Position numbers and translations under genes: made by a program. A stretch of DNA of 64,000 nt from Daejeonella oryzae DSM 19973. GTDB lineage: Bacteria; Bacteroidota; Bacteroidia; Sphingobacteriales; Sphingobacteriaceae. This document shows, piece by piece, positions 2 to 33,347 of this stretch; the first letter of the stretch is position 1, and the number at the start of each line of letters is the position of its first letter. Where the stretch lies: NCBI RefSeq assembly GCF_000422945.1, contig NZ_KE383964.1, positions 186,001-250,000 on the forward strand, in the 5' to 3' direction. Below the pieces are notes generated by a model. The model was given only the letters and a program-made list of their open reading frames with translations. It was not told where the DNA came from and searched no databases.

Positions 2-2566
2 ATTGCTTCACCTGAGCAATTGTTACAAGGTAGAGTGGCGGGTGTTCAGGTAACGCCGGCAAGTGGTGAACCCGGATCCGGAGCGACTATTAATATACGT
101 GGAACCAGCTCTATTCGTGCGGGAAATGGTCCATTGTATGTTGTGGATGGGGTTCCTTTAGATGGTGGTGGTACATCCGGCGGACTAGATGCTGGTGCGG
201 GTACTTCTTCAGCAAGAAATCCTTTGTCATTTATTAATCCTAGTGATATTGAGAATATCAGTATTTTGAAAGATGCGTCAGCATCTGCTATTTACGGATC
301 AAGGGGAGCTAACGGGGTAGTGTTAATTACTACCCGAAAAGGCTCGTCTTCTCAGGGAATTCAATTTGGGGCAAATACCAGTATTTCAACAGTAGCCAAA
401 AGATACGACTTATTAAATGCGGGTCAGTTCTTACCTGCAGTAGCTGCTACTGGCGCAGATGCAACTGCTGTTAATTTTGGTGGTGAAACAAACTGGCAGG
501 ATGAAATTTTCAGAACAGGAGTTTCCCAGAATTATAATTTAGGATTCGGAGGTGCAAAAGGTGCCTCATCATATCGTGCCTCTTTTAGCTATGATAATCA
601 AAACGGAACAATTAAAAATTCCGGGTTACAGCGTTTGACAGGACGTTTAAATGCCTCTCAGATGTTATTAAGCGATAAAATTAAGTTAGATCTCCAGTTT
701 ACTGCATCTAATATCAAAAATGATTTTGCTCCTATATCAGACAATGCAGGTTTTGAAGGTAGTTTAATTGGTGCAGTTCTTCAGGCTAATCCAACAGTAC
801 CTGTCAGAAATCCGAACGGAACCTTCTTCGATACAAAAGCCGGAGGTTTCAGAAATCCGGTTGCTATGCTTGAATTGATTGACGATACGGATAATATAAA
901 CAGATACCTTGGTAATTTTAGTGCCTCTTATACTTTTGTGAAAAATCTTACTTATAAAGGTACAATTGGTATTGATGAATCAAAAGCCGTAAGAACAACC
1001 TACCTTGATCCAAACCTCACCGGATATACTGGTGGTCAGAATATTAGAGGAATAAATATTAATCAGGTTACAGGTAACGGACGCGGAATTGTTCAAAATT
1101 TGCAACTTTCCTCTTACATTACAGAGCACACACTAAACTATGATAAGCAATTAAGTAATAGCAGTTCTTTAAATATTTTAGGAGGATTTTCTTATCAGCA
1201 ATTCAAAACTAATCCATTAAATGAAGTAGCGTATACGACTTCAACTCCCAATGTATTAGTTAAGGATATGAATTCTTTTACGAACAGATTGCCACTTTTC
1301 GGAGATAGCACCAAATCAGAGTTGCAATCTTTCTTCGGACGTGCTAACTACAATCTGAACGATAAGTATTTATTTACAGCAACTGTACGTACGGATGGTT
1401 CCTCTAAATTTGGAGAAAATAATAAATACGCCACTTTTCCAGCATTCGCTGTTAAATGGAAAATTATGAATGAAAGTTTTGCACCAAAAGAATCTTTTGA
1501 TGATCTGAGCCTTCGATTAAATTTTGGTATAACCGGTAACCAGGAATTTCCTGCATATGCTTCATTAGCTATTAAACAAGCTAATTTTAACGGTAGTTCT
1601 AATACTATAACCGCTGCCAGTCCTGATTTGAAATGGGAAACTACTACTCAGTATGGTGCGGGTATAGATTTCGCCATTTTGAAAAACAAATTGTCTGGAA
1701 CTCTGGATTATTTTAATAAATCAACAGAAGATCTATTATTCCTACAGGATTATGCACAGCCTGCAGCAATCCCCAGAAGATGGGTAAACTTACCTGGTAA
1801 AGTAATTAACTCAGGTCTGGAACTTGGTTTGAATCTTGATGCTGTAAGAAATTCCGGTTTCTCATGGGAAGTAATGTATAACATGACGATTCTTAAAAAC
1901 GAAGTAAAAGACTTTGGTAATAGAAACGTGATCACGGGTAATATCGACGGACAGGGATTATCTGGTGCATATGCGCAGATAATCACAAACGGTCAGCCTC
2001 TTGCTTCCTTTAATGTTCCAATTTTTGGTGGATATGATGCAAATGGATTAGGAATCTATCCAAATGCTGATGCTGGTACAATTCTTGGAAGTGCAATTCC
2101 TACGTTTACCGCTGGTTTAACCAATAATTTTAGTTTTGGCAAGTTTACTGCAAGCATTTTCCTGAATGCTGCCACAGGATTTTACATTTACAACAACACA
2201 GCCAATGCTTATTTTCTTAAGGGAAATTTAGTAACCGGTAGAAATGTCACTACTGAAGTTGCAAATAGTAATGAGAATCCACTTAACTCGGGTGAAGTTT
2301 CATCACGATTTCTGGAAAAAGGCGACTTTTTAAGACTGTCTAATGCAAACCTTGGATATACTTTTGACGTAACTAATATGAAGACAATTAAAAGTTTACG
2401 TCTTTCTTTGTCAGGTCAGAATTTATTCCTGATTACCAATTATTCAGGTATAGATCCGGAAATTAACACGAATAAGCAAAGAAACGGAGTGCCTTCACGA
2501 GGAATTGACTATACCGCATATCCAAGCGCTCGTACATTTACTCTTGGTTTAAATGCAGGCTTTTAA
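2..2566 (+). CDS. SusC/RagA TonB-linked outer-membrane protein, 5' truncated by window
   Basis: This is the C-terminal part of a SusC/RagA-family TonB-dependent outer-membrane transporter. The reading frame is open from base 2, so the signal peptide, carboxypeptidase-like domain and TonB box lie outside the window; the TTG at 20 is internal. The first ~100 visible residues are the end of the plug, with the family's [17 protein letters not shown] and [14 protein letters not shown] motifs. The rest is a long beta-barrel with alternating aromatic strands that ends in FTLGLNAGF, the usual terminal aromatic residue. A susD gene follows 18 bp downstream, so this is a SusCD importer, expected to take up an oligomer or glycan bound at the cell surface. 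The substrate cannot be read from the sequence. Downstream neighbours are VCBS/ASPIC lipoproteins rather than polysaccharide lyases or a GH battery. Confidence 0.95.
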
Positions 2567-2584
2567 TATTAAAGGATAAAGAAA

Positions 2585-4129
2585 ATGAAAAAGATAATCA
2601 CAAAAATTTCTGCTTTGGCCGGTATAGCTTTAGTCCTGTCTGCCGCTAGTTGCACGAAGCTGGATGAAGAAACCTTTGGGTCAAGATCTATTGATGAAGG
2701 TGGTGCTGCTACAGCAGCAAGTTTACAGGGCGTTTATGACCAATTGAATGGTCAAACAGATCAGGCGAACACATATGCTTTACAGGAACATTCCACTGAT
2801 GAAATGATGGGACCAACCCGTGGAACTGACTGGGGTGATTTTGGTACCTGGCGCAAGTTACATCAGCATACCTGGGATCCTTCGCATAATCAAATTAATG
2901 ATACCTGGGATCAGTTAAATACAGGAGTTTACCGGGCAACACAAGTTGTTGATGGGGCTACAGATGTTTCTATAAAAGCTCAGGCAAGTTTTTTAAGAGC
3001 CTGGTTTATGTTTCAGGTAACTGATCTTTTTGGTCAGCAACCATACAGAGATCCTAAAAGCGCTCCAGATGAAAATCCTGAGGTTAAGACCCGTACAGAA
3101 GCTACCGACTTTATAATTAAAGATTTAGAGTTTGCTGAAGCCAACTTAGGAACAGCTACTCTCGGAAAGGCGAGTAAAGCAGCAGCTCAGGCGCTTTTAG
3201 CAAAAGTTTATCTGAATAGAGCAGTGTATAATGCTGCTACAGTAGGCGGACCTTTTACATTTGCTAAAGCAGATATGGATAAGGTGATTGAGTATGCTAA
3301 TAAAATTACTGCCGCAGGAAGCTTTCAATTAGCCAGTTCAGGAAAATATTTTGATAATTTTTCATGGGATAACGCAACCTTATCAAAAGAAATAATTTTT
3401 GGTATTGAGAATACAGATGTTCAAGCACCAGGTACTACAAGAAATCGTTGGAGAATGGGACTGCACTATAATCAAACGCCTGACGGATGGAATGGATTTA
3501 CCACTTTAGCTGATTTTTATAAATCATTCGAAGCAGGTGATGAGCGTAGAGGGGGAGATTATCCTGGATTAACTGATAAAATTGGATTAAAGACTGGTTT
3601 TTTAATTGGTCAGCAATTTGGTCCGGGTAATGTAGCTTTGAAACAAAGAGGCGGACAACCATTAGTATTTACTGAAAATGTGAATATTAATTTCTCTACA
3701 GAAGCCCAGGGTATCAGGGTTATCAAATACTTTCCAAAGCCAACCGCAGATAATAAAGTTAATGATGACCAAGCAGGTAATGATTATATTTTCCTGAGAT
3801 ATGCAGATGTTATGCTTATGAAAGCAGAGGCAATTTTAAGAGGCGGAACAGATCCAAACGGTCAGACAGCGCTTGCAATTGTAAATGCTATTCGTACGCC
3901 GCGTGGAGCTACTGCATTAACTTCAGTTGACGAAGCCACTTTACTTGCTGAAAGAGGTCGTGAGTTATATTATGAAGGCTGGAGAAGAAATGATCAGATA
4001 CGTTTCGGAACATTTAATAATCCGGTTGATCAGCGTCCAAATGCCTCTGATAAAACACGGACTTTGTATCCAATTCCACAGCGTGCAGTTGATACAAATC
4101 CTAACTTGAAACAAAATCCTGGATATTAA
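2585..4129 (+). CDS. SusD/RagB-family surface lipoprotein
   Basis: This is a SusD-like lipoprotein, the surface lid and substrate-binding partner of the preceding SusC. The N-terminus has a signal peptide with lipobox SAASC, giving lipidated Cys23. The N-terminal TPR-like part contains the family patterns FLRAWFMFQVTDLFG (near residue 138) and AAAQALLAKVYLN (near 200). The C-terminal part has YIFLRYADVMLMKAEA and ERGRELYYEGWRRNDQIRFG, followed by the typical ending YPIPQRAVDTNPNLKQNPGY. At 514 residues it has normal family length. It starts 18 bp after the susC stop and is followed by a terminator-like hairpin at 4168, so the first transcript probably stops, or is attenuated, there before the two large lipoprotein genes. 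Confidence 0.95.
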   Translation: MKKIITKISALAGIALVLSAASCTKLDEETFGSRSIDEGGAATAASLQGVYDQLNGQTDQANTYALQEHSTDEMMGPTRGTDWGDFGTWRKLHQHTWDPSHNQINDTWDQLNTGVYRATQVVDGATDVSIKAQASFLRAWFMFQVTDLFGQQPYRDPKSAPDENPEVKTRTEATDFIIKDLEFAEANLGTATLGKASKAAAQALLAKVYLNRAVYNAATVGGPFTFAKADMDKVIEYANKITAAGSFQLASSGKYFDNFSWDNATLSKEIIFGIENTDVQAPGTTRNRWRMGLHYNQTPDGWNGFTTLADFYKSFEAGDERRGGDYPGLTDKIGLKTGFLIGQQFGPGNVALKQRGGQPLVFTENVNINFSTEAQGIRVIKYFPKPTADNKVNDDQAGNDYIFLRYADVMLMKAEAILRGGTDPNGQTALAIVNAIRTPRGATALTSVDEATLLAERGRELYYEGWRRNDQIRFGTFNNPVDQRPNASDKTRTLYPIPQRAVDTNPNLKQNPGY

Positions 4130-4167
4130 TTTCTGATTTATTTAAGTTTATAATATTTATATTTAAA

Positions 4168-4200
4168 ATGTAGCGGGATTTATCTCGCTACATTTGTTTT
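4168..4200 (+). terminator. Rho-independent terminator after susD
   Basis: An 11-bp stem (4168-4178 with 4183-4193, one G-U pair) and TTTA loop is followed by TTGTTTT. It separates susD from the first VCBS/ASPIC gene, which begins 20 bp later, so read-through or a separate promoter must supply that gene. Confidence 0.7.
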
Positions 4201-4219
4201 AGGCCATTTTTAATAGCAG

Positions 4220-7200
4220 ATGTACAGAAACTTTTATTTTTTAAGCTTAATCCTACTAATATTATCAGGCTCCTGCACCCGTACTAATAAGGATCAATTA
4301 TTTACTCTTCAGGATAATAAATCTATAGGAATTGAATTTAGCAATCAGCTGAGCGATCGAACAGGTACCAATATATTTTCTTTCCGAAATTATTACAATG
4401 GGGGCGGAGTTGCCATAGGAGATGTTAATAATGATGGTTTAAATGATATATTTCTAACATCCAATCAGGAAGGGAACCAGCTTTTATTAAATAAAGGGAA
4501 TTGGCAGTTTGACAATGTTAGCGCAAAGGCAGGTGTAAAAGGCAGCAAATATTGGAGTACAGGAGTTACCATGGTAGATATAAATGCGGATGGATGGCTT
4601 GATATCTATGTTTGTAATAGTGGGAATGCTCAGGGAAACGAGACTGAGAATGAACTTTTTATAAATCAGCAAGACGGGAAATTTAAAGAAGAAGGAAAAA
4701 AGTATGGATTAGCTGATAGGGGGCTATCTACCCACGCTGTATTTTTTGATTATGATTTGGATGGCGATCTGGATTGTTATGTTCTAAATAATTCCTTCAG
4801 GCCTATCGGGAGTTTTGATTTTTCAAAAGATATCCGGAATGTAGTGGACGAACTTGGTGGTGACCGATTATATCAAAATAACAATGGATATTACAAAGAG
4901 GTAAATAAACTGGCTAATATTTACTCAAGTGATATTGGGTTTGGCCTTGGTGTTTCGGTTGTTGATATAAACCAGGATGGTTATCCGGATATTTACGTTT
5001 CCAATGATTTTTTTGAACGTGATTATCTATATATCAATCAGAAAAACGGAACTTTTAAAGAGAATATTCAGTCTATGACAGGACATTTAAGCCTTGCTTC
5101 TATGGGGTCTGATATTGCAGATATTAACAATGACGGCTTATTTGATATTTTTACAACAGAAATGCTTCCCGAAGGAGATCAGCGACTTAAATCAATGACT
5201 TCGTTTGAATCCTATGATGTTGGCCGGCTCAAACAACGCGACGGTTTTTATAATCAATACATGCAAAATTGTCTCCAGCTCAATAATGGCGACAGCACTT
5301 TTTCAGAAATCGGTTTTTATTCGGGGGTAGCGGCTACTGACTGGAGCTGGGGCGCTTTGTTTTTTGATATGAATAATGATGGATGGAAAGATATATTCGT
5401 TTCCAACGGAATTTATAAAGATTTAACCAATCAGGACTACATAGAGTTCCTTGCTAATAAGGAAAATATGGAGAAAATAGCTGCAGGTAAAAAATTCGAT
5501 CACAAGGATTTTACTGATAAAATGACCTCGACTCCTATTCCTAATTATGCATTTATCAATAATAAAAATTTAACATTTGGCAGTAAATCTTCTGAGCTTG
5601 GTTTAGACCAGCCTTCATTTAGCAACGGTGCCGCTTACGGGGATCTGGATAATGATGGAGATGATGATTTGGTGATCAATAATGTGAATATGCCGTTATT
5701 TGTTTACAAGAATAACGCTGAAAAATTAAACAACCATTCTATTCAGTTTAAGCTGCAGGGCGATAGATTAAATACCTATGCTGTGGGAAGTACTGTTAAA
5801 GTATTTACAGCAGGAAATTCTCTAATTTATTACCATCAGCCAGCCAGAGGTTTTCAGAGCAGTATTTCTCCAAATTTGATCACTGTTGGGCTTGGAAAAG
5901 AAAAAACGATTGATTCTGTACAGATAATCTGGCCGGATGGAAAGTATAAAACAATTAAAAATCTCAAAGCTGATTCGGTGTATAAATACAGTTATGAAAT
6001 TGATAACCAGCAATATGCCTTTAAAAGCAATAATCGAAAACCGTTCTTAAGCCAGAATACTTCCGAATTATTTGATAGCATACCAAGGCACATTGAAAAT
6101 GATTTTATAGATTTTGACAATGAGCGGTTAATGCTGCAAATGTTATCAACGGAAAATCCATATATGGCTAAAGGAGATTTAAATGCCGATGGTTTGGAAG
6201 ATTTCTATTTTAGTAATTCCCAGGATTCTGAGGCAGCCATCTATGTTCAACAATCCGGCGGACGATTTTTGAAATACATTCCGGATGATTTCAAAAAGCA
6301 TATTTACCTGGAAAATGCCGGTGCTGTTTTCGGAGATTTTGATAAAGATGGCGATGAAGATCTTATGTGCACATACGGTGGGAATCAGGAAGAAGCAGAC
6401 TCCAAAGTTTTATATCCCAGGTTCTATGAGAATGACGGGAGAGGAAAATTAAAGTGGAATTCTGAAAAATCCATTAAATTTTCAATCAATGCATCAGTAA
6501 TCATAAAATCTGATTTTGATGATGATGGAGATGATGATCTTCTTATTGGAGGCCGCAGCACCCCCGGGGTTTATGGAAGCGCTCCTAAATCTTATGTGCT
6601 CGAAAACGATGGCAGCGGAAATTTTAAAGATGTTTCATCCCTGGTTTTTGGTAAAAATCAGAATAATTTAGGAATGGTAACAGATGCTAAATGGGCAGAT
6701 CTGGATGGAAATGGTTCAGAGGATCTGGTTATAGCAGGTAACTGGATGGGAATACGGATTTTTATGAATACCAAAGGAAAGTTTAGTCCTGATAATTCTT
6801 TGTTAAAATTTAAAGGATGGTGGAGCAGTCTACAAATTTCTGATATCAACAAGGATGGAAAATTAGACATCCTTGCAGGCAATCTGGGGACTAACTCTAA
6901 GTTTAAAGCAACAGAAAAAGAGCCCTTACGCATATTTGTTAAAGATTTTGACAATAATGGAACGAAGGAATGCATCACTTCAATATATAAATCAGATCAT
7001 AAATCATACGTATTTCATCTCAAACCTGATCTGGTTGGCCAACTTCCTTCCCTTAAAAAGAGATTTTTACGATATGAAGATTATGCCGGTAAAACGTTTG
7101 ACGAGGTGTTTACTCCAGAATTGCTTAAAGGAGCGGAGTCTCATGAAATTAATTTTTTACAATCTGCAGTTTTTTTCAATAAAGGAAAAGGGAATTATGC

Positions 7201-7522
7201 GGTTAGTCCTTTTCCGGCAAGAGCTCAGTTTACATCTGTAAACAGTATTTTGGTGGATGACTTAAACCGAGATGGCAATACCGAAATTATCCTTACCGGA
7301 AACTTTTATGGGTTTAAGCCAGAGGTTGGCAGATTAGATGCCGGATACGGAGATGTTTTTACATTTAAAAATAACAAGTTCATTTTTGTTCAATCGGCCG
7401 AAAGCGGATTAAAGATCAATGGCCAGGTAAGGTCTTCAATAGTGATAAAAAATAAATCCGGAGAAAAATATTATTTGTTCGGAAGGAATAACGATAGTCT
7501 GCTAAGTTACCGCTTAAACTGA
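4220..7522 (+). CDS. FG-GAP/VCBS-repeat lipoprotein with ASPIC/UnbV domain (1)
   Basis: This is a predicted surface lipoprotein of 1100 residues with lipobox LSGSC (Cys19). I count about 14 Asp-rich Ca-binding loops of the form DxNxDGxxDI, for example DVNNDGLNDIF, DINQDGYPDIY and DFDDDGDDDLL. They lie in two blocks (roughly residues 60-500 and 640-1080), as expected of integrin-like FG-GAP/VCBS beta-propellers. Between them, at about residues 515-585, is an ASPIC/UnbV domain with a VGLG turn and an IIWPDG motif. Automatic pipelines sometimes call such proteins RNA-binding or CRTAC1-like; an extracytoplasmic adhesive or ligand-binding role is more likely given the lipobox. A paralogue of similar length and architecture lies 61 bp downstream, and the SusCD pair is just upstream. 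The ligand is unknown, and no catalytic motif is visible. Confidence 0.85.
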   Translation: MYRNFYFLSLILLILSGSCTRTNKDQLFTLQDNKSIGIEFSNQLSDRTGTNIFSFRNYYNGGGVAIGDVNNDGLNDIFLTSNQEGNQLLLNKGNWQFDNVSAKAGVKGSKYWSTGVTMVDINADGWLDIYVCNSGNAQGNETENELFINQQDGKFKEEGKKYGLADRGLSTHAVFFDYDLDGDLDCYVLNNSFRPIGSFDFSKDIRNVVDELGGDRLYQNNNGYYKEVNKLANIYSSDIGFGLGVSVVDINQDGYPDIYVSNDFFERDYLYINQKNGTFKENIQSMTGHLSLASMGSDIADINNDGLFDIFTTEMLPEGDQRLKSMTSFESYDVGRLKQRDGFYNQYMQNCLQLNNGDSTFSEIGFYSGVAATDWSWGALFFDMNNDGWKDIFVSNGIYKDLTNQDYIEFLANKENMEKIAAGKKFDHKDFTDKMTSTPIPNYAFINNKNLTFGSKSSELGLDQPSFSNGAAYGDLDNDGDDDLVINNVNMPLFVYKNNAEKLNNHSIQFKLQGDRLNTYAVGSTVKVFTAGNSLIYYHQPARGFQSSISPNLITVGLGKEKTIDSVQIIWPDGKYKTIKNLKADSVYKYSYEIDNQQYAFKSNNRKPFLSQNTSELFDSIPRHIENDFIDFDNERLMLQMLSTENPYMAKGDLNADGLEDFYFSNSQDSEAAIYVQQSGGRFLKYIPDDFKKHIYLENAGAVFGDFDKDGDEDLMCTYGGNQEEADSKVLYPRFYENDGRGKLKWNSEKSIKFSINASVIIKSDFDDDGDDDLLIGGRSTPGVYGSAPKSYVLENDGSGNFKDVSSLVFGKNQNNLGMVTDAKWADLDGNGSEDLVIAGNWMGIRIFMNTKGKFSPDNSLLKFKGWWSSLQISDINKDGKLDILAGNLGTNSKFKATEKEPLRIFVKDFDNNGTKECITSIYKSDHKSYVFHLKPDLVGQLPSLKKRFLRYEDYAGKTFDEVFTPELLKGAESHEINFLQSAVFFNKGKGNYAVSPFPARAQFTSVNSILVDDLNRDGNTEIILTGNFYGFKPEVGRLDAGYGDVFTFKNNKFIFVQSAESGLKINGQVRSSIVIKNKSGEKYYLFGRNNDSLLSYRLN

Positions 7523-7583
7523 ATTTCTGATATAACATGAACCACTTATACATTCAAACTTCGCAGCTCAAATCTATTTGTAG

Positions 7584-10500
7584 ATGAATTTCAGATCCTT
7601 TACACTCCTTATTTCCGCTTTGTTTCTCTTTTCCTGCAAAGAAAAAAACGTAGATAAACAGACATTTTCATTGCTTGATCCTTCAAAAAGCAACGTAAAT
7701 TTCATTAATACGATTACGGAAAGTGATTCTTTAAATATTCTGGATTATCTGTATTTCTACAATGGTGCGGGCCTGGCCTCAGCAGATTTTAATAATGACG
7801 GGCTGGAAGACCTTTATTTTATATCAAACCAGGAGAGCAACAAATTATATCTGAATAAAGGAAATCTGCAGTTTGAAGATATTACGGAGAAGTCGGGGGT
7901 TAGGGGTACGGGCGACTGGAAAACCGGTGTGACTATAGTCGATATTAACGGAGATGGTTTTAAAGATATTTATCTGTCTGTAGTTTCCGGATACAGAAAT
8001 TTTAAAGGCAAAAATCAGCTTTATATAAATAATGGCAACCTTACTTTTACAGAAAGTGCTGCAAAATACGGTATAGATTTCGCCGGACTTTCAACCCAGG
8101 CTTCTTTTTTTGATTATGATAAAGATGACGACCTGGATTTGTTTATTCTGACACATTCGGTGCATAGTAACGATACATATGGTGATTCTACTCAGCGATT
8201 TAAATACAGTCATGATGCCGGCGATCATCTCTTCAGAAATGACAATAACTCTTTTAAGGATGTTACTCAGGGCTCTGGAATTTATGCCGCACCCATTGGC
8301 TATGGCTTAGGTATTAGCATTGCAGATCTGAATAATGATGGCTGGGATGATATTTATATCAGCAATGATTTTTTTGAACAGGATTACTATTACATCAATC
8401 AGCAAAACGGGACTTTTAAGGAAAAATTAAAAGATGCATTCGGCCATACCAGCTTATTTTCGATGGGAAATACCATTAGCGATATGAATAAGGACGGGCA
8501 TTTGGACGTAATTTCTACTGATATGCTGCCTGAAGATATGAAGGTGCTTAAATCAACTATTAATGACGAGCCTCTGGATGTGTATAATCTGGAAGTGAAA
8601 AGTGGGTTTTATTATCAGTACTCCAAAAATTCGCTACAACTTAATGTGGGAAAAGGCGAGAAATTTGTTGATTTGGCTCTGTATTCGGGTATTTCCGCAA
8701 CAGACTGGACATGGTCTCCTCTGGCCCATGATTTTGATATGGATGGCAAAAAAGATCTGTTTTTCTCCAATGGAATTAAAAAAAGGCTAAATGATCTGGA
8801 TTATCTTAAATATTTGGGAGATCCTAATGTGGTAAAGGAATATAAAACCAACCGAGTTTTTGATCGTGATAATATTAACAGGATGCCGGACGGGAAAGTC
8901 CATAATTTCCTGTATAAGGGAGACAGTCTTCTCAAATTCAGAGATATATCTGTAAATAATGATATGATTAAGCCTTCTTCGTCTTCGGGAGCAATAATGG
9001 TTGATCTGGATAATGATGGCGATCTGGAAATTATCACAAATAATATAGATGAACCTGCTTTTATTTATCAAAATCTTACTATCCTAAAAGATCAGGGAAC
9101 AAAGCCTGAATTTTTAAAGTTGAAAGTTAAATACTCTAAAAATAACCCTGATGGAATTGGGACTAAGTTATTTTTGAAAACTAACCGCGGGGTTGATCAT
9201 CAGGAAGTACAAACCAGCAATGCCTTTCAGAGCAGCCATGACCTTAATCTTAATTTTACTTTTTCTACAGGAGAAAAGCCCCAAGAGCTGTTAGTAATCT
9301 GGCCTGATAATTCATGGCAAAGAATCAACAAATTTAATTCAGGCAAAGCTGAGGTTATAACTTATGACAGCCAGAAAATTAATCGTTCAGCAGACGTGTC
9401 TAATCTAATCGATTCTTTTATCAAAGAGCATAAGCAATTTGATAGTAAAAGGGTGGAGGCAAGTCTTTTAACAACGGTTTCTACAAATGAAACCCCCGAT
9501 TTTAACTACAATTCCTTAATTCCGCATGCTTATCTTCCAAAGACGCCGCCTTTGGCAATAAGTGATTTAAACGCTGATGGTCAGGATGATGTGTATGTTG
9601 GAGGAATTTCAGGACAGGAAAAGTATCTGATGATCAGTTCGCCTGACGGAAAATTTAAGAAAGTACAAATTCCGGCATTTGCCCGCTTTTTAGACTATTC
9701 CGATTCAGAGGCTCAGTGGGCCGATCTGGATAATGATGGGGATATGGATCTGGTGGTCCAAAGCGCCAATCATCCTTTTTCAGACCGGGATAAAATTCAG
9801 CCTGCCAGAGTATATATCAATCAGGGAAATTTAAAATTTGAATATAAATCTTTGCCGAAATTAGAAACTCAGACCTCAAAAATATGCCTGTTGGATTTTA
9901 ATGGTGATGGTTTAAGAGATATATTTTTAAGCGGTGCAATATCTTACAGAAATTATACAGAAGATTTGCCTTCTGCATTGTTTTTAAACTCCGGTAAAGG
10001 AAACTTCAGACCTGCATCTCAGAAACAATACGCTGATCTTTTAACTGTTCCGTATATCCGGAATATTATTGTTGCAGATGTAAATGGCGATGGGAGAGAA
10101 GACCTGATCATGGCCGCAGAATGGAAACCGTTGCAAGTTTTTCTGAATAAAGCCGGAAAATTTGAAAAATGGTCTTCGCCACTATTGGATAAAATGCAGG
10201 GCTGGTGGCAGAATGTAATGGTTACCGATCTAAACTCAGATGGTAAGCCTGATCTTATTGCCGGTAACTGGGGCTTAAACAATAAATATAATGTCACTGA
10301 AGCCACACCTTTAATAGCTTACAATAGTGATTTGGATCAATCGGGTAAGAATGATTTGATTCTTTCGTACAGTTACAAGGAGAAATATTATCCTTTCAGA
10401 CCTAAAAATGACCTCGAGCAGGAGCTTCCGTATCTTAAAAAAGAATGGCTTAGTTACCAGAAAATGGCTGATAAAACCACGGAAGAAATTTTTAAAGGCA

Positions 10501-10928: not shown

Positions 10929-10931
10929 ATT

Positions 10932-11882
10932 TTATAAAACCGGATAATAAATCTGAGTAATCCATTTGCTGGTATCTTTTATGGCCTTTCTATCCGTAAT
11001 CATCATTTCGTAAGGCATAGCGGGTGAAATTAGTCTGTTATCTTTTACGTATTGCTGAAAAGAATTAAATGCATTCTTAATGGTTTGCGGTCCGCCTTTT
11101 ACCTCTGTTACAAGTAATTTTCCTTCCACCATTTTTGTTATAGATGCATTATTTGTAGAAGGGATTTCTTTGCTTGTAGGAATCGCCACCGTGATTTCAA
11201 AGTCTTTTTTATAGGGTTTGTGAACACTGAGCATGGGTGAAGCAGTTGCCGGTACATTGCCGGATTCAAGAATTTTCCGGAGATCAGTAACCATTTGATA
11301 AACAAAGTTAACATCCGGATATACAGGGCTTATTTTTACCATCGTCAGCAAAATCATATGCTTAACCCTTTCTTGCTTTATAGTAATACCATACACCCGA
11401 TTTTCATGATCAAAAAAAGTTTTTATTTGCTCTAATATGACCTTGAAATTTTTGCTGATCAGGGTTCCTTTTTGATAATTGCTAATTCGTTCCAGAGGAA
11501 ACCGGCCGGCCGGAAAATCAGTTACCAAACTTATATTCATGCTGTCTGTACTCGTGCCTATATAATTCAGATTAGCCTTACTATGTATATTTTTAGTTTT
11601 CAGCAGGATCTGAGCTCCGCTATTTGTTGTTTTAATAAGGTTGTAGCATACAGAATCAAAACAATATTCCGCCATATTATTTCTGCCAGATTTTGCAGAG
11701 CCTTTTTCCGGCCACCATTTTTGCCAGCCCTTTGCAGAACTTAAATACTTTAAAGAATTGAAATCACTCGCTTTGACAATGATATTCTGTTGAACATAAA
11801 TTGTATCAGGAATAAATAGATAAACGCCGGATAAAAAAAGCGCTGTTAGTATTCCGAAAGCTAAAAGTAATTTTCTCATCAT
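10932..11882 (-). CDS. Membrane-anchored SRPBCC/GyrI-like ligand-binding protein
   Basis: This 316-residue protein has an N-terminal hydrophobic anchor (about residues 4-26) followed by YVQQNIIVKASDF and GWQKWWPE, features typical of SRPBCC (START/polyketide-cyclase-like) domains. Its last ~150 residues resemble GyrI-like small-molecule-binding domains, with a VAIPTSKEIP strand, a VTEVKGGPQ stretch and the terminal ISPAMPYEMMITDR...QIYYPV pattern. Such two-domain proteins occur in Bacteroidota, but their ligands are unknown to me. It is transcribed against the SusCD/VCBS cluster and sits between it and the GH65 gene, so it is probably independent of both. Two adjacent ATG codons open the gene; I used the first. 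The fold call is by pattern only. Confidence 0.65.
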   Translation of the reverse strand: MMRKLLLAFGILTALFLSGVYLFIPDTIYVQQNIIVKASDFNSLKYLSSAKGWQKWWPEKGSAKSGRNNMAEYCFDSVCYNLIKTTNSGAQILLKTKNIHSKANLNYIGTSTDSMNISLVTDFPAGRFPLERISNYQKGTLISKNFKVILEQIKTFFDHENRVYGITIKQERVKHMILLTMVKISPVYPDVNFVYQMVTDLRKILESGNVPATASPMLSVHKPYKKDFEITVAIPTSKEIPSTNNASITKMVEGKLLVTEVKGGPQTIKNAFNSFQQYVKDNRLISPAMPYEMMITDRKAIKDTSKWITQIYYPVL

Positions 11883-12048
11883 TTAATAATACCGATAAAC
11901 ATAAACATTCTTATAATCATTAAATGTCCATGCAATTAGAATCTCAAATTAATTATCAGATTTAGATTTTAAAAATAACTATTGGGTAAATATTATTTTC
12001 GGTTGAATATCAGGCAGATTTTTATATTTTTAAATTAAATACCATTTT

Positions 12049-14091
12049 ATGTGTTTATTTAAAAAGCTGCTCGCATCTATATTTATTCTAATTTCTGCTA
12101 ATCTTTTTGGCCAGTCCAAACCGGATGCCTGGAAAATAAAGGCTGATAAAATAAATCCATCAGATTATTATGGAATAACTGTAGCAAATGGTATGATCGG
12201 GATTATTTCTTCTCCTGAACCTTTTAAAGTTAAAAATGTAGTTCTTGCCGGAGCTTATGATCTGTATGGAAGAGGTCGGGTGAGCAATTTTCTGAATAGC
12301 TTTAACCTTCTGAACATGAATTTTGATATTGATGGCAAAAGGCTGGATGCTAAATCGGTAACTAATTTTAGACAGGAACTGGATATGAAGCACGCTTCAT
12401 TTACCACCACTTTTGATTATGCCGATAAGGCAAGCATTAAATATACGTATTACTCTTTGCGTCAACTGCCTTATACAGTTTTAATGGATATTACAGTAAC
12501 TGCAAAAAAGGATATCAATATTTCACCTTCCAGCGTGATGGAAGCTCCGGATGCATTAAAAGAAGTTCAAAATTATTATAACGAAATCGATCGTCCGCAT
12601 GTAACCCTTGCACTATTAACTTCAACAGCAAAAAGCCCCACCGGCAAATTGCAGCTTTGCGCATCCAATACATTTCTGTTTAATGAGGGCCATGGAAAGG
12701 AACCCCGTGTTATTCACGAAATGTGGGATAATAACCTGCATTTAATGAAATTTACAAAAGCTGTTAAAGCGGGGCAAGCCTATCAATTTGCAATTGCCGG
12801 TTCCTCTATTACTTCTGCTCATCACGATGATCCCTTAAATGAAGCGGAGCGTTTAACCATTTTTGCCAAACTGGAAGGCCGTGACCGATTATTGAAATTC
12901 CACAATCAGGCTTGGGACGAACTCTGGAAAAGTGATATTCAAATAGAAGGCGATGCGCAGGCACAGCAGGATGTTCATAGCATGCTGTACCATTTATATT
13001 CTTTCTCACGTGCGGGTACTGATTTATCACCTTCTCCGATGGGACTTTCAGGATTGGGTTATAACGGTCATGTTTTCTGGGATACCGAAGTATGGATGTT
13101 TCCGGCATTGCTGGTGCTGCAGCCTGAAATAGCTCATTCACTGATTGAATACCGTTACCGCCGACTGGATGCGGCTAAGCGAAATGCATTTGCACATGGA
13201 TTTAAAGGTGCAATGTTTCCCTGGGAAAGTGCTGATTCTGGAGTTGAGGAAACGCCCGTATGGGCATTAAGTGGTCCTTTTGAACACCACATAACGGCCT
13301 GTGTGGGTTTGGCAGCCTGGAATTATTATAGCGTAACACAGGATAAAGAATGGCTTCGGGAAAAAGGCTGGCCAATTTTATCAGCTACCGCCGATTTTTG
13401 GGCCAGTAGAGTAGAGCGTAATGGTCCCGGGCATTACGACATAAAAAATGTGGTGGCTGCCGATGAGTGGGCAGAGAATGTGGATAATAATGCTTTCACA
13501 AATGCCTCTGCTAAAGTAAATCTGCAGAATGCAGCAGCTGCTGCAAAGATTTTAGGATTACCCGCTGACAGCGACTGGGTGCATGTAGCACAAAATATTC
13601 CCATTTTAAAAATGGCTAACGGAGTAACCCAGGAACATGCAACTTACAAAGGAGAAGGAATTAAACAGGCCGATGTTAATTTACTGCCCTATCCTTTGGG
13701 AGTAATTACAGATCCGGATCAGATCAGAAAAGATTTGGAATATTATGAAACACGGGTTCCGGATGAAGGAACTCCAGCCATGACACAGGCAATTTTTACG
13801 CTTCTTTATGCTCGGTTGGGTGATGGAGAAAAGGCGCATCATTTTTTTAAGGATTCCTATGAACCCAATCTAAATCCGCCTTTCAGAGTAATTGCAGAAA
13901 CCAAAGGCGGAACCAACCCTTACTTTGCCACCGGTGCCGGCGGAATAATACAGAGTTTACTAATGGGATTTGGTGGTCTGGATATTACTCCCCAGGGAAT
14001 TGTTCAGAAAAAAGGCACATTGCCGAAAGCCTGGAAATCACTAAAAATTACCGGAGCAGGACTTGAGAAAAAAACGTATATTGTTAAATAA
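12049..14091 (+). CDS. Secreted GH65-like glycosidase (ATHL1/PGGHG type)
   Basis: This 680-residue exported enzyme has a signal peptide ending near NLFGQ. The (alpha/alpha)6-barrel signatures of GH65 are present: GHVFWDTEVWMFP (about residues 341-353), an FPWESADSG stretch (near 392), and ADEWAENVDNN (near 471), where E473 is the likely catalytic acid. The WESADSG motif and the layout resemble the acid-trehalase-like/ATHL1 group, whose characterised human member is a protein-glucosylgalactosyl-hydroxylysine glucosidase. Other GH65 members are maltose, trehalose or kojibiose phosphorylases, but those are usually cytosolic and about 750-800 residues long. Release of an alpha-linked glucose in the periplasm is therefore the best guess; the exact linkage is not determinable. 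It is followed by a small membrane protein 18 bp downstream. Confidence 0.75.
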   Translation: MCLFKKLLASIFILISANLFGQSKPDAWKIKADKINPSDYYGITVANGMIGIISSPEPFKVKNVVLAGAYDLYGRGRVSNFLNSFNLLNMNFDIDGKRLDAKSVTNFRQELDMKHASFTTTFDYADKASIKYTYYSLRQLPYTVLMDITVTAKKDINISPSSVMEAPDALKEVQNYYNEIDRPHVTLALLTSTAKSPTGKLQLCASNTFLFNEGHGKEPRVIHEMWDNNLHLMKFTKAVKAGQAYQFAIAGSSITSAHHDDPLNEAERLTIFAKLEGRDRLLKFHNQAWDELWKSDIQIEGDAQAQQDVHSMLYHLYSFSRAGTDLSPSPMGLSGLGYNGHVFWDTEVWMFPALLVLQPEIAHSLIEYRYRRLDAAKRNAFAHGFKGAMFPWESADSGVEETPVWALSGPFEHHITACVGLAAWNYYSVTQDKEWLREKGWPILSATADFWASRVERNGPGHYDIKNVVAADEWAENVDNNAFTNASAKVNLQNAAAAAKILGLPADSDWVHVAQNIPILKMANGVTQEHATYKGEGIKQADVNLLPYPLGVITDPDQIRKDLEYYETRVPDEGTPAMTQAIFTLLYARLGDGEKAHHFFKDSYEPNLNPPFRVIAETKGGTNPYFATGAGGIIQSLLMGFGGLDITPQGIVQKKGTLPKAWKSLKITGAGLEKKTYIVK

Positions 14092-14109
14092 AAATATCAT
14101 CCAAAAAAC

Positions 14110-14649
14110 TTGAAAAAAGGAGTTTCTATATTGTTATTAGGATTTTTCCTGTTTAATATAATAGGCTATAAGCTTTTTTTCTACTATCAGATTGCCGTAG
14201 CTGATTCCCGGATGCAAAGTAAAATTGAAACGATGCATGAAACGGATAGGAGCCTATTTACAATCAAAATTCCTATCAGATTACCCTACCATACGGACTG
14301 GAAAGATTTTGAGTCTATAGAAGGGGAGATGACGTATAAAAATACAACCTATAAATACGTTAAACGGAAGGTACTTCGAGATACATTGATATTGTTATGT
14401 GTAAACCATCAGGAGAAATCCCTCATTCAAAAAAATAGTGACGATTATTTTAAAAAGGTAAATGATCTGAATACTGATAAATCCAAACAGGTTTTAAAGC
14501 AAAGTAAAGATGATTTTTTTGAGAAATCTGTAAAACTGTCTTTTCCAGATTATCCTATCATCCTTTTTGATCATTCTCTTTTCAGCAGAGTTCTGAAAAC
14601 CTCCACATACAAATCTTCGATAGAAATGCCGCCCGATCACTTAAGCTGA
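14110..14649 (+). CDS. Hypothetical single-span membrane protein
   Basis: I do not recognise a function for this 179-residue protein. It begins with a TTG codon at 14110, giving a positively charged MKKGVS start followed by a hydrophobic segment (about residues 5-28) that looks like a signal anchor. No ATG is available before the hydrophobic stretch, which is why TTG is chosen. The remainder is soluble, rich in Lys, Asp and Ser, with a predicted extracytoplasmic face. It lies 18 bp after the GH65 gene and 55 bp before the first haloperoxidase-like gene, all on the same strand, so it may belong to the same operon. No motif, repeat or cysteine pattern points to an activity. Confidence 0.6.
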   Translation: MKKGVSILLLGFFLFNIIGYKLFFYYQIAVADSRMQSKIETMHETDRSLFTIKIPIRLPYHTDWKDFESIEGEMTYKNTTYKYVKRKVLRDTLILLCVNHQEKSLIQKNSDDYFKKVNDLNTDKSKQVLKQSKDDFFEKSVKLSFPDYPIILFDHSLFSRVLKTSTYKSSIEMPPDHLS

Positions 14650-14704
14650 TCCTTATCTGGCTGTTTCAGCCCCTTATTTCTTATCTATAACTTAATTTAT
14701 TTGT

Positions 14705-16030
14705 ATGCATCGCTTTCTATTATGGATTGCAGGCTTGTGTATTTTATTTACGGCCTGTTCTAAATCCGATTATAAATCATTTACCTCAGATCCTGCCCTG
14801 TATCGTGTAACTGTTAAAAAACTGAACGATATCGTTTTAGAGAATAATTTTCCACCTGTAATTGCTTCACGAAATTATGCTTACGCAAATATTGCAGCGT
14901 ATGAAGTGATTGCAGCCGGAAATCCTCAAAAATTTCATTCTCTGGCCGGACAGATTAAACATTTAACGCCCGTTCCTAAACCGGTTTTACCTGAAATTGA
15001 TTTTCATTTCGCTTCGCTTCTGGCTTTTTGTACGGTTGGCAACGCCGTTACTTTTCCAGAAGGAAGTATGGATTTATATGTTGAGGATTTAAAAGAAAGG
15101 GTAAAAAATGCCGGAATGCCTTCTGATGTTTTTAAGCAGTCGGTTGAATATGCCGATACGGTTTCCAAACATATAATGAATTGGAGTAAGGGAGATAATT
15201 ATTTACAAACCCGTTCTGCCAGCAAATTTACCGTAAAAACAGAAGATGGTCGCTGGATTCCAACTCCGCCAATGTATTCACAGGCACTTGAACCTCATTG
15301 GAAAGAAATTCGTCCGATGGTATTAGATTCTGCTGCTCAAATTATCCCGCCGGCGCCACCGGTTTACAATATGAAGGATACAACAAGTCAGTTTTATAAA
15401 AACGCGTTGGAAGTAAAAATAATTGGAGATAGTTTGGATGAGGAGCAAAAGCATATTGCCGATTTCTGGGATGATAACCCTTTCCGTTTAAACGTGATTG
15501 GCCATGTAATGTATGCCACCAAAAAATTCTCTCCCGGCGGGCATTGGATGAATATTGTTGGAATTGCTACAGAAAGTCAAAAATCAGATTTTAACACAAC
15601 GGTAAGCATTTATACAGAAGCGTCCATTGCATTGTTTGATGGTTTTATCAGTTGCTGGCACACAAAATTTACAACCAATTACGTGCGACCTGAAACGGTG
15701 ATTAATAAGCATTTGGATTCAGACTGGCGCACATATCTTCAAACTCCGCCTTTTCCGGAATACAGCAGTGGCCACGCCGTAATTTCATCGGCCACAGCCG
15801 AAATATTAACCGCAAGATTGGGGGATAATATTGCTTTCCGCGATACGTCAGAGGCTGAATTTGGTATCGCAGACAGAGAATTTAAATCATTCAGGGCGGC
15901 TGCAGCGGAAGCGGGAATGTCAAGAGTTTATGGCGGAATTCATTATACTAATTCGTGCTTAATGGGCACAGAACAAGGTAAACAGGTTGCCGGAATTATT
16001 TTGAGCCGGCTTAAACTAAAAAAAATATAG
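14705..16030 (+). CDS. Vanadium-dependent haloperoxidase/PAP2-superfamily lipoprotein (1)
   Basis: This 441-residue protein has a lipobox ending LFTAC and so is probably anchored in the periplasm or at the surface. The C-terminal half carries the full vanadate/phosphate-binding signature of the PAP2/vanadium-haloperoxidase superfamily: K321-x6-R328-P329, S355-G356-H357 and S406-R407-x5-H413. H413 would be the residue that covalently coordinates vanadate in a haloperoxidase, or the nucleophile in an acid phosphatase. The upstream helices (for example FWDDNPFRLN and GHWMNI) fit the bacterial haloperoxidase-like group better than small membrane PAP2 phosphatases. A close functional relative lies two genes downstream, with an outer-membrane barrel between them. 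Whether it uses halide/peroxide or hydrolyses phosphate cannot be decided from the sequence. Confidence 0.85.
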   Translation: MHRFLLWIAGLCILFTACSKSDYKSFTSDPALYRVTVKKLNDIVLENNFPPVIASRNYAYANIAAYEVIAAGNPQKFHSLAGQIKHLTPVPKPVLPEIDFHFASLLAFCTVGNAVTFPEGSMDLYVEDLKERVKNAGMPSDVFKQSVEYADTVSKHIMNWSKGDNYLQTRSASKFTVKTEDGRWIPTPPMYSQALEPHWKEIRPMVLDSAAQIIPPAPPVYNMKDTTSQFYKNALEVKIIGDSLDEEQKHIADFWDDNPFRLNVIGHVMYATKKFSPGGHWMNIVGIATESQKSDFNTTVSIYTEASIALFDGFISCWHTKFTTNYVRPETVINKHLDSDWRTYLQTPPFPEYSSGHAVISSATAEILTARLGDNIAFRDTSEAEFGIADREFKSFRAAAAEAGMSRVYGGIHYTNSCLMGTEQGKQVAGIILSRLKLKKI

Positions 16031-16063
16031 AATTCTGCATCTGGTAATATTAAATAGATTGAT

Positions 16064-16993
16064 ATGTATTACACTAAAAATATAAGGATTTTGATCCTAC
16101 TGATCTTAGTAAATATCCCTTTGCTGAGTAAATCACAAACAGAACAGGATGCCTTGATGATGCCCCAACGGAATTTATGCGTTGCAGGTATTGTGGGATA
16201 TTCCAGCTGGACCAATTATTACGAAGGAACTTTTAAAAGAGACAATGCCAATATTGGGCGCCTGTCAACTACATCTGCTATGCTGGGATTAAATTATGGA
16301 CTCAATAAAAATGTAAATTTAATTGCCTCGCTGCCCTATGTATCTACCAAAGCATCACAGGGAACTTTGAGTGGTTTAGAGGGATTTCAAGATCTGGCAC
16401 TATATGTAAAATGGCGGCCCATTCAAAAGCAGTTGGGTAAACAAAATATTTCCTTATTTGGAGTGGGTGGCTTTTCTACCCCTTCAAATGATTATAATAT
16501 TGATTTTTTGCCTATGTCGGTAGGTCTGGGAAGTACAATGTTAAGTGCAAGAATGATAGTTGATATTCAGAGGAATAAGTTTTATTCGACGATATCTGCC
16601 GGATACTTATTAAGGGGCAATGTTAAAATAGACCGCCCGGCGTATTATACAAACCGTCAGATTAATTCTAATGAAGTTGAGATGCCCAATGTGGGTAGCT
16701 TTCAGTTCAGAACCGGCTACCGGTCCTCAAAATTAATTGCAGAGGCCTCTTTAGTAAATATGACCACCCTTGGCGGTTTTGATATACGGAAAAATGATAT
16801 GCCCTTTGTAAGTAATAAAATGAATGCTACCAGCGCTGGGGTAGAAGCTAAATATTATCCTGTAAATAATACTCTTGGATTGAATGCATCCGTATGGCAT
16901 ACGTTAGAAGGTCGGAATGTAGGTCAGTCTACAGGATATTCTGCGGGCATACTTTATACAATCAATTTTAAATCAAAAACTATCGCTAAATAA
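16064..16993 (+). CDS. Outer-membrane beta-barrel (transporter-like) protein
   Basis: This 309-residue exported protein has a signal peptide (about residues 1-25, ending near LSKSQ). The mature part is a run of short amphipathic beta-strands with Gly/aromatic turns, for example GLNYGLNKNVNLIASLPYVS and DLALYVKWRPI, and it ends in a strand (YSAGILYTINF). This matches the broad family of Bacteroidota outer-membrane transporters or meta-pathway phenol-degradation-type barrels. It starts 33 bp after one haloperoxidase-like lipoprotein gene and ends 5 bp before another, so the three are almost certainly co-transcribed. A barrel serving as a pore or assembly partner for the two lipoproteins is inferred only from that order; the substrate is unknown. 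Confidence 0.7.
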   Translation: MYYTKNIRILILLILVNIPLLSKSQTEQDALMMPQRNLCVAGIVGYSSWTNYYEGTFKRDNANIGRLSTTSAMLGLNYGLNKNVNLIASLPYVSTKASQGTLSGLEGFQDLALYVKWRPIQKQLGKQNISLFGVGGFSTPSNDYNIDFLPMSVGLGSTMLSARMIVDIQRNKFYSTISAGYLLRGNVKIDRPAYYTNRQINSNEVEMPNVGSFQFRTGYRSSKLIAEASLVNMTTLGGFDIRKNDMPFVSNKMNATSAGVEAKYYPVNNTLGLNASVWHTLEGRNVGQSTGYSAGILYTINFKSKTIAK

Positions 16994-16998
16994 ATACC

Positions 16999-18543
16999 AT
17001 GAAAAGAATTATAATTAACCTCATTTATGGTATATGCTTATTAAGTATATTATCATGCAATAAAGATATAATTGAAATCAATTCTAATTATGAAGCACTG
17101 CAGCCATCTAAATTAGATTTGGACGCAGGCAACTGGAAACCTTTTATTGTAGCCTCGTCAGCAGAATTTCCTGTACCCTCACCAGAAGCTGTTAATTCTG
17201 AGGCCTATCAGAATGAATTAAAAGATTTAAAGACACTATCTTCAAATTTAAGCGAGGAACAGAAAAGTATCATTAATTACTGGAAGGTGGGTAGTGTTTT
17301 AAGATGGAATGAAATTATGCGGGAGCTGGTAGCAAAGCATAATTTACCGCCTTATCAAAATCAGGATGGAACGTATCCGGTTCCCAGTGCTGCTAATCCA
17401 TTCGCTTATCCGGAGTTTCCTTTTTCAACTCCGCCCTATGCGGCACGGGCGTATGCGTATGTAAGCATTGCTCAATATGATGCTTTAATTATGGCCTGGA
17501 AATTTAAAACTCAATTTAACCGGCCCGCGCCTTATAAAACAGATGCAAGTATAATGGTGAGTATTCCTAAAAGTGAACTCTCATCTTATCCTTCTGAGGA
17601 TGCAGTGATTGCAGGAGCGTCTTTTGAACTAATGAAATTATTATTCCCGGCGGATATAGAGCTTATCTCCAAAATGGCACAGGATGAAAAAAATTACCGT
17701 TTATGGAGTGGAGCTAATGTGAAAAGTGATATCTCTGCCGGAGATTCACTGGGAAGATGGGTTGCACGGAAAGTTATACAGCGGGCAAAAACAGACGGGA
17801 TGGGTGTTGCCGGCGGAAGTCCGGCTATCTGGAAACAACTGGAGGATGATTGTGTAGCGAGAGGAGAAACACCATGGCTATCTCTTGAATCGCCAAAAAG
17901 ACCACCAATGCTTCCGGTTTTTGGAAATGTTAAACCTGTACTGTTCGAGGCTTCATTGGTTCCTTCCTTAAGAGCTGTTCCGCCTCCTCCAACCAACAGC
18001 GACCAAATGCGAAAAGAGCTGGATGAAGTTTTAAATTTTACTCAAAATCCTACAAAGGAACGCATGAGAATAATTAATTTTTGGGCTGATGGGGCCGGTA
18101 CGTATACCCCGCCCGGGCATTGGAATGCTATAGCAACTGAAGAATTTATAAAAAATCAATATAGTGAAGTGCGCTGGGCCCGTAATTATGCTTTATTAAA
18201 TGCCGCTATGATGGACGGAGCAATTGTTTGCTGGAATACCAAGAATTATTATTTTAATCCTCGTCCCTGCCAGTTAAATCCGGCTATTAAAACACTTACA
18301 GGTTTGCCCAATTTTCCGGCATATATTTCCGGTCATTCCACTTTTAGCGGTGCAGCAGCAACAATTCTGGGCTATTTATTCCCGCAGCGCAGGACTGATT
18401 TTGAGGCAATGGCTCTTGAAGCTTCTAACTCGAGAATGTATGGGGGCATTCATTATCGTGCAGATTGTGAACAGGGCTTAGTTACCGGTAAAAAAGTTGG
18501 TGACTTTGCGGTAGCCAGGGCACAGATCGATGGTGCGAATTAA
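16999..18543 (+). CDS. Vanadium-dependent haloperoxidase/PAP2-superfamily lipoprotein (2)
   Basis: This is a second haloperoxidase-like lipoprotein, 514 residues, with lipobox LSILSC near residue 20. The complete PAP2/vanadium-haloperoxidase signature is visible: K415-x6-R422-P423, S444-G445-H446, and S478-R479-x5-H485 followed three residues later by Asp489. It is longer than the first copy and differs through most of its N-terminal half, so the two are ancient rather than recent duplicates. It begins 5 bp after the outer-membrane barrel gene. A strong hairpin with a T-run follows at 18577 and closes the transcription unit. Peroxidase versus phosphatase activity is unresolved; lipid anchoring suggests action outside the cytoplasmic membrane. 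Confidence 0.85.
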   Translation: MKRIIINLIYGICLLSILSCNKDIIEINSNYEALQPSKLDLDAGNWKPFIVASSAEFPVPSPEAVNSEAYQNELKDLKTLSSNLSEEQKSIINYWKVGSVLRWNEIMRELVAKHNLPPYQNQDGTYPVPSAANPFAYPEFPFSTPPYAARAYAYVSIAQYDALIMAWKFKTQFNRPAPYKTDASIMVSIPKSELSSYPSEDAVIAGASFELMKLLFPADIELISKMAQDEKNYRLWSGANVKSDISAGDSLGRWVARKVIQRAKTDGMGVAGGSPAIWKQLEDDCVARGETPWLSLESPKRPPMLPVFGNVKPVLFEASLVPSLRAVPPPPTNSDQMRKELDEVLNFTQNPTKERMRIINFWADGAGTYTPPGHWNAIATEEFIKNQYSEVRWARNYALLNAAMMDGAIVCWNTKNYYFNPRPCQLNPAIKTLTGLPNFPAYISGHSTFSGAAATILGYLFPQRRTDFEAMALEASNSRMYGGIHYRADCEQGLVTGKKVGDFAVARAQIDGAN

Positions 18544-25686: not shown

Positions 25687-25899
25687 AATTTTTAATTTTT
25701 GATTGCTTGGGATAGCAGTTCAGTTCATAATAACAAAAAAATAGCAAAATTGATAGATTTAAGAGTGTTTTTTTAATTATTGGATTCTTTACAATCCATT
25801 TTTTATGGATTAAATAGCTGTAAAACACTACCGTTTCCTTCATTAATTTTTCCTAAATTTCTTTTCAGAAATGTTCTTAAGTTCTATCAATCAGTGCCT

Positions 25900-27258: not shown

Positions 27259-27261
27259 ACG

Positions 27262-28458: not shown

Positions 28459-28459
28459 T

Positions 28460-29438: not shown

Positions 29439-29458
29439 CACTCACCTTCATTCTATCT

Positions 29459-32314: not shown

Positions 32315-32327
32315 AAACACCAGACAT

Positions 32328-32355: not shown

Positions 32356-32366
32356 ATGTTTTGAAG

Positions 32367-33326: not shown

Positions 33327-33347
33327 AAATACAGAGTTAAATTTAGA

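Follow-up and report, generated by a model that had tools for sequence, protein, structure and literature searches.

A recurrent linkage of SusCD, ASPIC propeller and vanadium haloperoxidase-family genes in Bacteroidota

The window analysed here is a 64,000-nucleotide stretch of the Daejeonella oryzae DSM 19973 genome (assembly GCF_000422945.1, contig NZ_KE383964.1, positions 186,001–250,000, forward strand). Near its start, genes for a SusC-type receptor and a SusD lipoprotein precede two genes for FG-GAP/ASPIC-UnbV lipoproteins (ASPIC1 and ASPIC2) and, further on, a gene for a vanadium haloperoxidase-family lipoprotein called VHPO1. We find that this order, SusC–SusD–ASPIC–VHPO1, is not accidental. 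An earlier note on this DNA had suggested a surface system that takes hold of a ligand and alters it, oxidatively or phospho-chemically, ahead of import, a view that our results support in part. It had made conserved synteny the test of whether such genes form a system, and synteny proved strong for SusCD, ASPIC and VHPO1, whose order recurs in other genomes. Each of the protein families is already known, and no description of their recurrent combination turned up in the literature searched.

Linkage of SusCD, ASPIC and VHPO1 genes

Linkage was assessed in 121 genomes of the family, each searched for GH65, ASPIC and VHPO1 genes, and in 296 genomes of the phylum, both samples being drawn evenly. 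Among 89 VHPO1 matches in the family, we counted the 74 with E values of 1e-40 or lower and excluded the 15 weaker ones, 13 of which have no ASPIC gene within 12 kb. Sixty-seven of the 74 lie at most 12 kb from an ASPIC gene, compared with 1.74 expected under random placement, and 63 of these 67 share the strand of the nearest ASPIC gene. Seen from the other side, 79 of 96 ASPIC open reading frames (ORFs) of at least 870 residues are within 12 kb of VHPO1, versus none of the 11 shorter ones. All 29 family genomes with a large ASPIC gene also have VHPO1, which occurs alone in 3 genomes; the other 89 hold neither. Two genomes (G089 and G044) carry five ASPIC–VHPO1 loci each, indicating that the pairing has been retained in paralogous copies.

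The association extends across the phylum, where ASPIC genes are present in 140 of the 296 genomes and VHPO1 (E value of 1e-20 or better) in 59. Comparison of the two lists by eye reveals that 58 of these 59 genomes also hold ASPIC, versus 140 of 296 overall. For gene order, we used the regions fetched around VHPO1 genes, from which the phylum-level ASPIC distances were also taken. Outside the family, 80 of 81 such regions were fetched (the VHPO1 gene of L161 was lost to an ORF overlap filter). After removal of a duplicate (L050/L148; 185 reduced to 184), 184 loci with at least 8 kb upstream of VHPO1 were usable. An ASPIC gene lies within 10 kb of VHPO1 in 123 of them, and the strict order of SusC, SusD, one to three ASPIC genes and VHPO1 is found in 64, belonging to several families. 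Because the regions extend no further than about 13 kb upstream (10 kb in the 80-locus relatives set), a SusCD pair behind several ASPIC genes may escape this count. The distance between ASPIC and VHPO1 is below 400 bp in 77 of 214 loci, with a median of 15 bp.

In the window, the SusC gene (3′ part, positions 2–2566, plus strand) extends 416 bases past the window edge at its 5′ end and encodes 993 residues in full (L009:9585-12566). It is followed on the same strand by SusD (2585–4129; PF07980 and PF14322), ASPIC1 (4220–7522) and ASPIC2 (7584–10928), a paralogue separated from ASPIC1 by 61 bases. These two genes are the only ASPIC matches in the whole genome, which has 12 SusD and 8 PAP2 matches. 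All genes that the earlier note listed were found in place, as was the terminator it saw near 4168, which is real as a hairpin. Its arms (4166–4175 and 4186–4195, plus strand) pair exactly over 10 bases and are followed by GTTTT, as judged by eye; a terminator scanner with a loop limit of 8 did not list this element in the interval between SusD and ASPIC1.

Propeller lipoproteins and haloperoxidases

The two ASPIC proteins score 62.8 and 31.3 bits on PF07593 (cut-off 23.4) and contain an FG-GAP propeller. In its structure model, ASPIC1 resembles CRTAC1, with a propeller and an ASPIC domain, to which a second propeller is added. Relative to CRTAC1/ASPIC-UnbV (9etn), the window proteins are bacterial lipoproteins of roughly 1,100 residues with an extra C-terminal propeller. 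Across 24 aligned homologues, Cys19 of ASPIC1 does not vary. This cysteine and the lipoprotein-type N-termini suggest that ASPIC and VHPO1 proteins reside at the outer membrane.

VHPO1 (14705–16030, plus strand; PAP2 protein number 1) matches the iodoperoxidase of Zobellia galactanivorans (4cit) with an E value of 2e-113, and no phosphatase chain was listed for it at E values up to 1 in a sequence search of structure chains. Its oxyanion pocket is complete (Lys, Arg, Ser-Gly-His, Arg and His), and it shares the Trp and Phe positions of the 4cit pocket. Across 216 aligned VHPO1 rows, the Lys, the first Arg and the last His are present in all 216, the equivalents of Arg410 and His360 in 213 and 212, and those of Gly359 and Ser358 in 204 and 194, respectively. 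These residue numbers are those of ZgVIPO1, which fit the numbering of the 4cit chain with an offset of 8. By sequence match and pocket residues, VHPO1 belongs to the vanadium iodoperoxidase family of Zobellia (4cit/4usz). Moreover, the VHPO1 of L165, which scores 760 bits on 4cit, resides behind three ASPIC genes and beside a GyrI-like gene, so a very close relative of a proven iodoperoxidase occupies this type of locus.

The second PAP2 protein of the window, VHPO2 (16999–18543, plus strand), is a lipoprotein only distantly related to the Zobellia enzyme (E value of 1.3e-17 on 4cit), and acid phosphatases, including 7f17 and 1d2t, appear from 2.3e-10. Its pocket is likewise complete, with all seven positions (Lys, Arg, Ser, Gly, His, Arg and His) kept in 36 of 36 rows. 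Judging from these sequence relationships, VHPO1 and VHPO2 would depend on vanadium, a halide and a source of peroxide.

A GH65 version of the locus

Between ASPIC2 and VHPO1 lies a GH65 gene (12049–14091, plus strand) with a signal-peptide-like N-terminus, as judged by eye. The earlier note called its product GH65-like; this assignment stands and can be narrowed, because the protein scores 1,220 bits on the NCBI kojibiose hydrolase model (cut-off 800). It matches FjGH65A (7fe3) with an E value of 1.3e-285. According to PMC8626586, Glu472 and Glu616 of FjGH65A are the catalytic acid and base, and Trp391 recognizes kojibiose; the window residues Glu473, Glu617 and Trp392 align with these positions. 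By family model and intact catalytic residues, the gene is predicted to encode a kojibiose hydrolase (alpha-1,2-glucosidase). Acid, base and Trp are the same as in FjGH65A, whereas the locus differs and the natural substrate presumably differs too.

A gene for a membrane-anchored SRPBCC/GyrI-like protein is located between ASPIC2 and GH65 on the minus strand (10932–11882). Rather than breaking up the unit, as had been proposed, it is conserved along with the GH65 version, and its relatives accompany GH65 in other families. Among 51 usable GH65 loci, 45 carry such a gene, 43 carry it together with ASPIC and 6 have neither; a GyrI-like gene is present in 6 of the 133 loci that lack GH65. The co-occurrence in 43 of 51 loci indicates that the SRPBCC-like gene belongs to this version. 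The window protein has no match to PF06445, and its relatives score 19.2 and 25.9 bits (cut-off 26); a profile comparison nevertheless links the GyrI-like genes of the two groups as distant homologues (hhalign probability 96.4, E value of 1e-9). In L037 and L039, a GyrI-like match is flanked by SusD and ASPIC, all on one strand.

In Mucilaginibacter, where VHPO1 and SusCD are arranged head to tail, GH65 and VHPO1 have exchanged places relative to the window genome, which suggests that these genes remained together across a rearrangement. Of 28 GH65 places in the family, 17 are near VHPO1 and 18 near ASPIC. In the phylum, where ASPIC genes near GH65 were checked in part, 14 of 25 kojibiose hydrolases above the cut-off are within 16 kb of VHPO1 and another 10 are not; one (G126) sits beside ASPIC in a genome that has no VHPO1. 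A GH65 match with one internal TGA was also seen in an incomplete genome (G009:C158:6204-8186).

A separable channel and haloperoxidase module

A small membrane protein with no Pfam match (14110–14649), conserved upstream of VHPO1, begins 18 bases after GH65 and ends 55 bases before VHPO1. An outer-membrane barrel (16064–16993) follows VHPO1 after 33 bases, and VHPO2 follows the barrel after 5, all on the plus strand. The earlier note saw a haloperoxidase–barrel–haloperoxidase trio as part of the system. Its first member is indeed tied to ASPIC, whereas the small protein, the barrel and VHPO2 make up a separable module (module B). All three occur together in 28 of the 184 loci; the fetched region includes an ASPIC gene in 9 of these and none in 19. 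Module B is thus a real unit, which in this genome and some related ones has become joined to the ASPIC locus.

The window barrel matches no Pfam family, including the COG4313/phenol-channel family. However, its structure model has 12 strands and a strong fold match to the COG4313-type outer-membrane channel (4rl8), with 15% sequence identity. A family of 363-residue proteins is present at 35 of the 80 loci of the relatives set, often between VHPO1 and the barrel, and may represent a second channel. An apparent relative in L149 scores 23.2 bits on the phenol-channel Pfam family (cut-off 22), and another member has no clear match.

Alpha-glucoside genes around the locus

With adjacent SusC and SusD genes and linked carbohydrate-active enzymes (GH65 and GH37), the window locus is of the Sus type. 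The earlier note ended the unit at position 18543. Its genes are as described, but the end is not: a GH37 trehalase (18734–20305, plus strand), with homologues in 32 of the fetched related loci, and further trehalose and sucrose genes continue to 29368. Beyond the trehalase are MscS, GH15/TREH_N and OtsA–OtsB genes, and then a sucrose-type operon (25780–29368) encoding an MFS carrier, a GH100-like invertase and a PfkB kinase. The carrier has homologues at 41–57% in eight loci, the kinase has homologues at 36–38% in L178, L179 and L182, where a GH13 family gene follows, and an invertase relative is present in L180. The GH13 protein of L179 is sucrose-phosphorylase-like (316 bits, below its cut-off of 334). 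Together, the trehalase, carrier, kinase and invertase genes point to small non-reducing glucosides. It had been suggested that the ligand is a glycoprotein or a phosphorylated compound; the GH65 family and these trehalose and sucrose neighbours argue for small alpha-glucosides instead.

Directly upstream of SusC is a gene for a NUDIX regulator of the NrtR/AraR type (L009:8454-9149), and further upstream are genes for phosphofructokinase, GAPDH, an alpha/beta hydrolase, a branching-enzyme-like GH13 with CBM48, and GH31. A regulator-type family comprises 10 ORFs at 10 sister loci, of which the one scanned is of the NUDIX/AraR type. On the other side of the sucrose-type operon, positions 29414–40750 hold a starch-type Sus locus with a GH13 protein bearing a type IX tail, SusE, SusD, an unscanned ORF of SusC length and a LacI regulator (39686–40750).

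The branched-dextran locus FjDexUL of Flavobacterium johnsoniae (PMC10316084) shares SusC, SusD and a secreted GH65 kojibiose hydrolase with the window locus, where a sugar-type regulator adjoins SusC. FjDexUL has SusR, SusE/F, GH66, GH31 and GH97, whereas in the window ASPIC propellers and haloperoxidases occupy the place of SusE/F and the endo-hydrolases. The Pfam matches at positions 2–18543 include no GH66, GH97 or SusE, and those of the 15 proteins of 2–27258 and of eight scanned upstream ORFs include neither GH66 nor GH97, which sets the locus apart from the FjDexUL type. The words ‘vanadium’ and ‘VCBS’ were not found in the main text of that report.

Sister loci and their cargo

Fifty-five sister regions (VHPO1 E values of 1e-150 to 1e-40) were annotated with profiles built in this analysis, and one representative of each cargo family was scanned. 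The commonest form is plain SusC–SusD–ASPIC–VHPO1, found in 33 of 51 family regions with 8 kb upstream. Redox cargo at some sister loci includes an FG-GAP protein of 517 residues in which a CXXCH motif was seen by eye, a multihaem cytochrome, a redoxin and a glucose/sorbosone dehydrogenase (GSDH) with cytochrome c; hydrolases include a GH5 with a ricin domain. ASPIC and VHPO1 are on opposite strands in L100–L103, and L110, L118 and L144–L147 have no ASPIC gene in the region.

Some arrangements are distinctive. In L093–L099, all from the same genus, ASPIC, cytochrome c–glucose/sorbosone dehydrogenase, a PLP (pyridoxal phosphate) enzyme, VHPO1, SMP-30, RidA and cytochrome c occur in one run of varying composition, which appears to be a redox form of the ASPIC–VHPO1 unit. 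In L155, L157 and L162, a GH116/MGH1-like enzyme of 881–903 residues (the L162 member was scanned) lies between ASPIC and VHPO1, near an unscanned gene that looks by its N-terminus like a 4-alpha-glucanotransferase. A 3-keto-disaccharide hydrolase and a cytochrome c protein are near the small protein–VHPO1 pair in L044 and L045, and several ORFs of 180–210 residues from one family (cluster c56) are near VHPO1 in L046 and L053.

Discussion

We propose, with a probability of roughly 45%, that the window locus serves alpha-glucoside uptake with a haloperoxidase that makes reactive halogen species at the importer, and that SusC–SusD–ASPIC–VHPO1 is the core of this class of loci. SusCD would import a small glucoside. 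Beside SusCD, the ASPIC double propellers, as calcium-loop lipoproteins, would hold the ligand or organize the complex. VHPO1 would oxidize a halide with peroxide at the outer membrane, and the resulting hypohalous acid would act on captured material or on the surroundings. A periplasmic GH65 kojibiose hydrolase would then cut the imported alpha-1,2-glucosides, and the adjoining genes would handle trehalose and sucrose. Module B, comprising the small protein, the COG4313-like channel and VHPO2, would be an addition to the window version.

Several observations weigh against this proposal. VHPO1 has no ASPIC gene within 12 kb in 7 of 74 family cases, and VHPO1 is missing from the same distance around 17 of 96 large ASPIC genes, although some of these may be at contig ends. 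Of the 184 usable loci, 61 have no ASPIC gene within 10 kb of VHPO1, many of these being module B or distant VHPO1 relatives. Kinship of the loci inflates such counts, and thus the Fisher values for linkage are not independent tests; on the VHPO1 tree, the ASPIC neighbour changes at least 23 times and GH65 at least 11. The ligand is deduced from the hydrolase and neighbouring genes, and sister loci carry GH2, GH3, GH20, GH29, GH35 and GH43, indicating that the ligand is not the same everywhere. Halide specificity is not readable from sequence, and the relatives in Mucilaginibacter, Pedobacter and Chitinophagaceae are largely terrestrial or freshwater organisms, for which iodide is scarce. An oxidase is absent from the Pfam matches of the cluster, and the single GMC oxidoreductase match of the genome, in a search confined to this oxidase family, is some 45 kb distant.

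Other explanations use the same genes differently. That an alpha-glucoside locus and a haloperoxidase operon merely adjoin is extremely improbable. Module B lacks ASPIC in 19 of 28 loci and the order of GH65 and VHPO1 varies between the window genome and Mucilaginibacter, as chance neighbours might, but the reordered genes are still together, and the family linkage (67 of 74) recurs among paralogous loci within a genome as well as in other families. Chance adjacency is therefore disfavoured for VHPO1, a judgement that does not extend to VHPO2 or the barrel. The PAP2 fold and pocket are common to haloperoxidases and phosphatases, so these proteins might instead be phosphatases whose substrates are teichoic-type glycans or phosphorylated sugars. 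Teichoic acids can contain kojibiose, acid phosphatases bind phosphate in the same pocket, and VHPO2 matches 7f17 and 1d2t as well as 4cit. VHPO1, however, is far closer to 4cit than to any phosphatase chain and shares its pocket Trp and Phe, and we regard this alternative as unlikely. We are similarly doubtful of a protective role, in which the haloperoxidase would remove peroxide, or produce hypohalite to counter competitors or the defences of algae and plants, and would be found in uptake loci only through their induction on host tissue. Such a role would suit the redox cargo of some sister loci and the up-regulation of Zobellia vIPO3 on Ascophyllum relative to alginate (PMC9296495), but leaves unexplained the tight pairing with ASPIC and the head-to-tail order behind SusD.

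Iodine or halogen acquisition offers a further reading: VHPO1 would make hypoiodous acid using peroxide derived from hydrolase-released glucose, and SusCD or the channel would import oxidized iodine or an iodinated carrier. Iodine uptake by Arenibacter C-21, whose genome encodes five or more homologues of the Zobellia enzyme, requires glucose, oxygen and calcium; a glucose oxidase and a haloperoxidase have been proposed for it (PMC5064120). The closest solved relative of VHPO1 is an iodoperoxidase, and the ASPIC proteins are calcium-loop proteins. Nevertheless, the cluster holds no gene of the glucose oxidase (GMC) type, and the genes conserved around it encode glycan hydrolases and sugar transporters, making this quite unlikely. 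A bolder combination, which we consider very unlikely, would make SusCD–ASPIC–VHPO1 loci glycoside-fuelled halogen machines, in which glucose yields peroxide, VHPO1 yields hypohalous acid, and a calcium-loaded ASPIC propeller receives this acid and either halogenates or oxidizes the ligand or supplies the cell with iodine. The unbV gene occurs in enediyne clusters whose pathway runs through iodinated intermediates, which would fit such a role. If true, this reading would give a genetic basis to iodine uptake in marine Flavobacteriaceae, which depends on glucose, oxygen and calcium.

Many Bacteroidota, some with several copies, carry a cluster of SusC/SusD, propeller and vanadium haloperoxidase-like genes, and the window holds what appears to be its alpha-1,2-glucosidase version. 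If our proposal of alpha-glucoside uptake with a haloperoxidase at the importer is correct, recurrent uptake loci of this phylum have halide oxidation built in, a feature that would link the halogen cycle to carbohydrate uptake. ASPIC/UnbV proteins and bacterial haloperoxidases would then gain a shared task open to testing one gene at a time. Should the chemistry prove different, the recurrent SusCD–ASPIC–VHPO1 order can still guide the naming of genes now listed merely as FG-GAP, ASPIC or PAP2.

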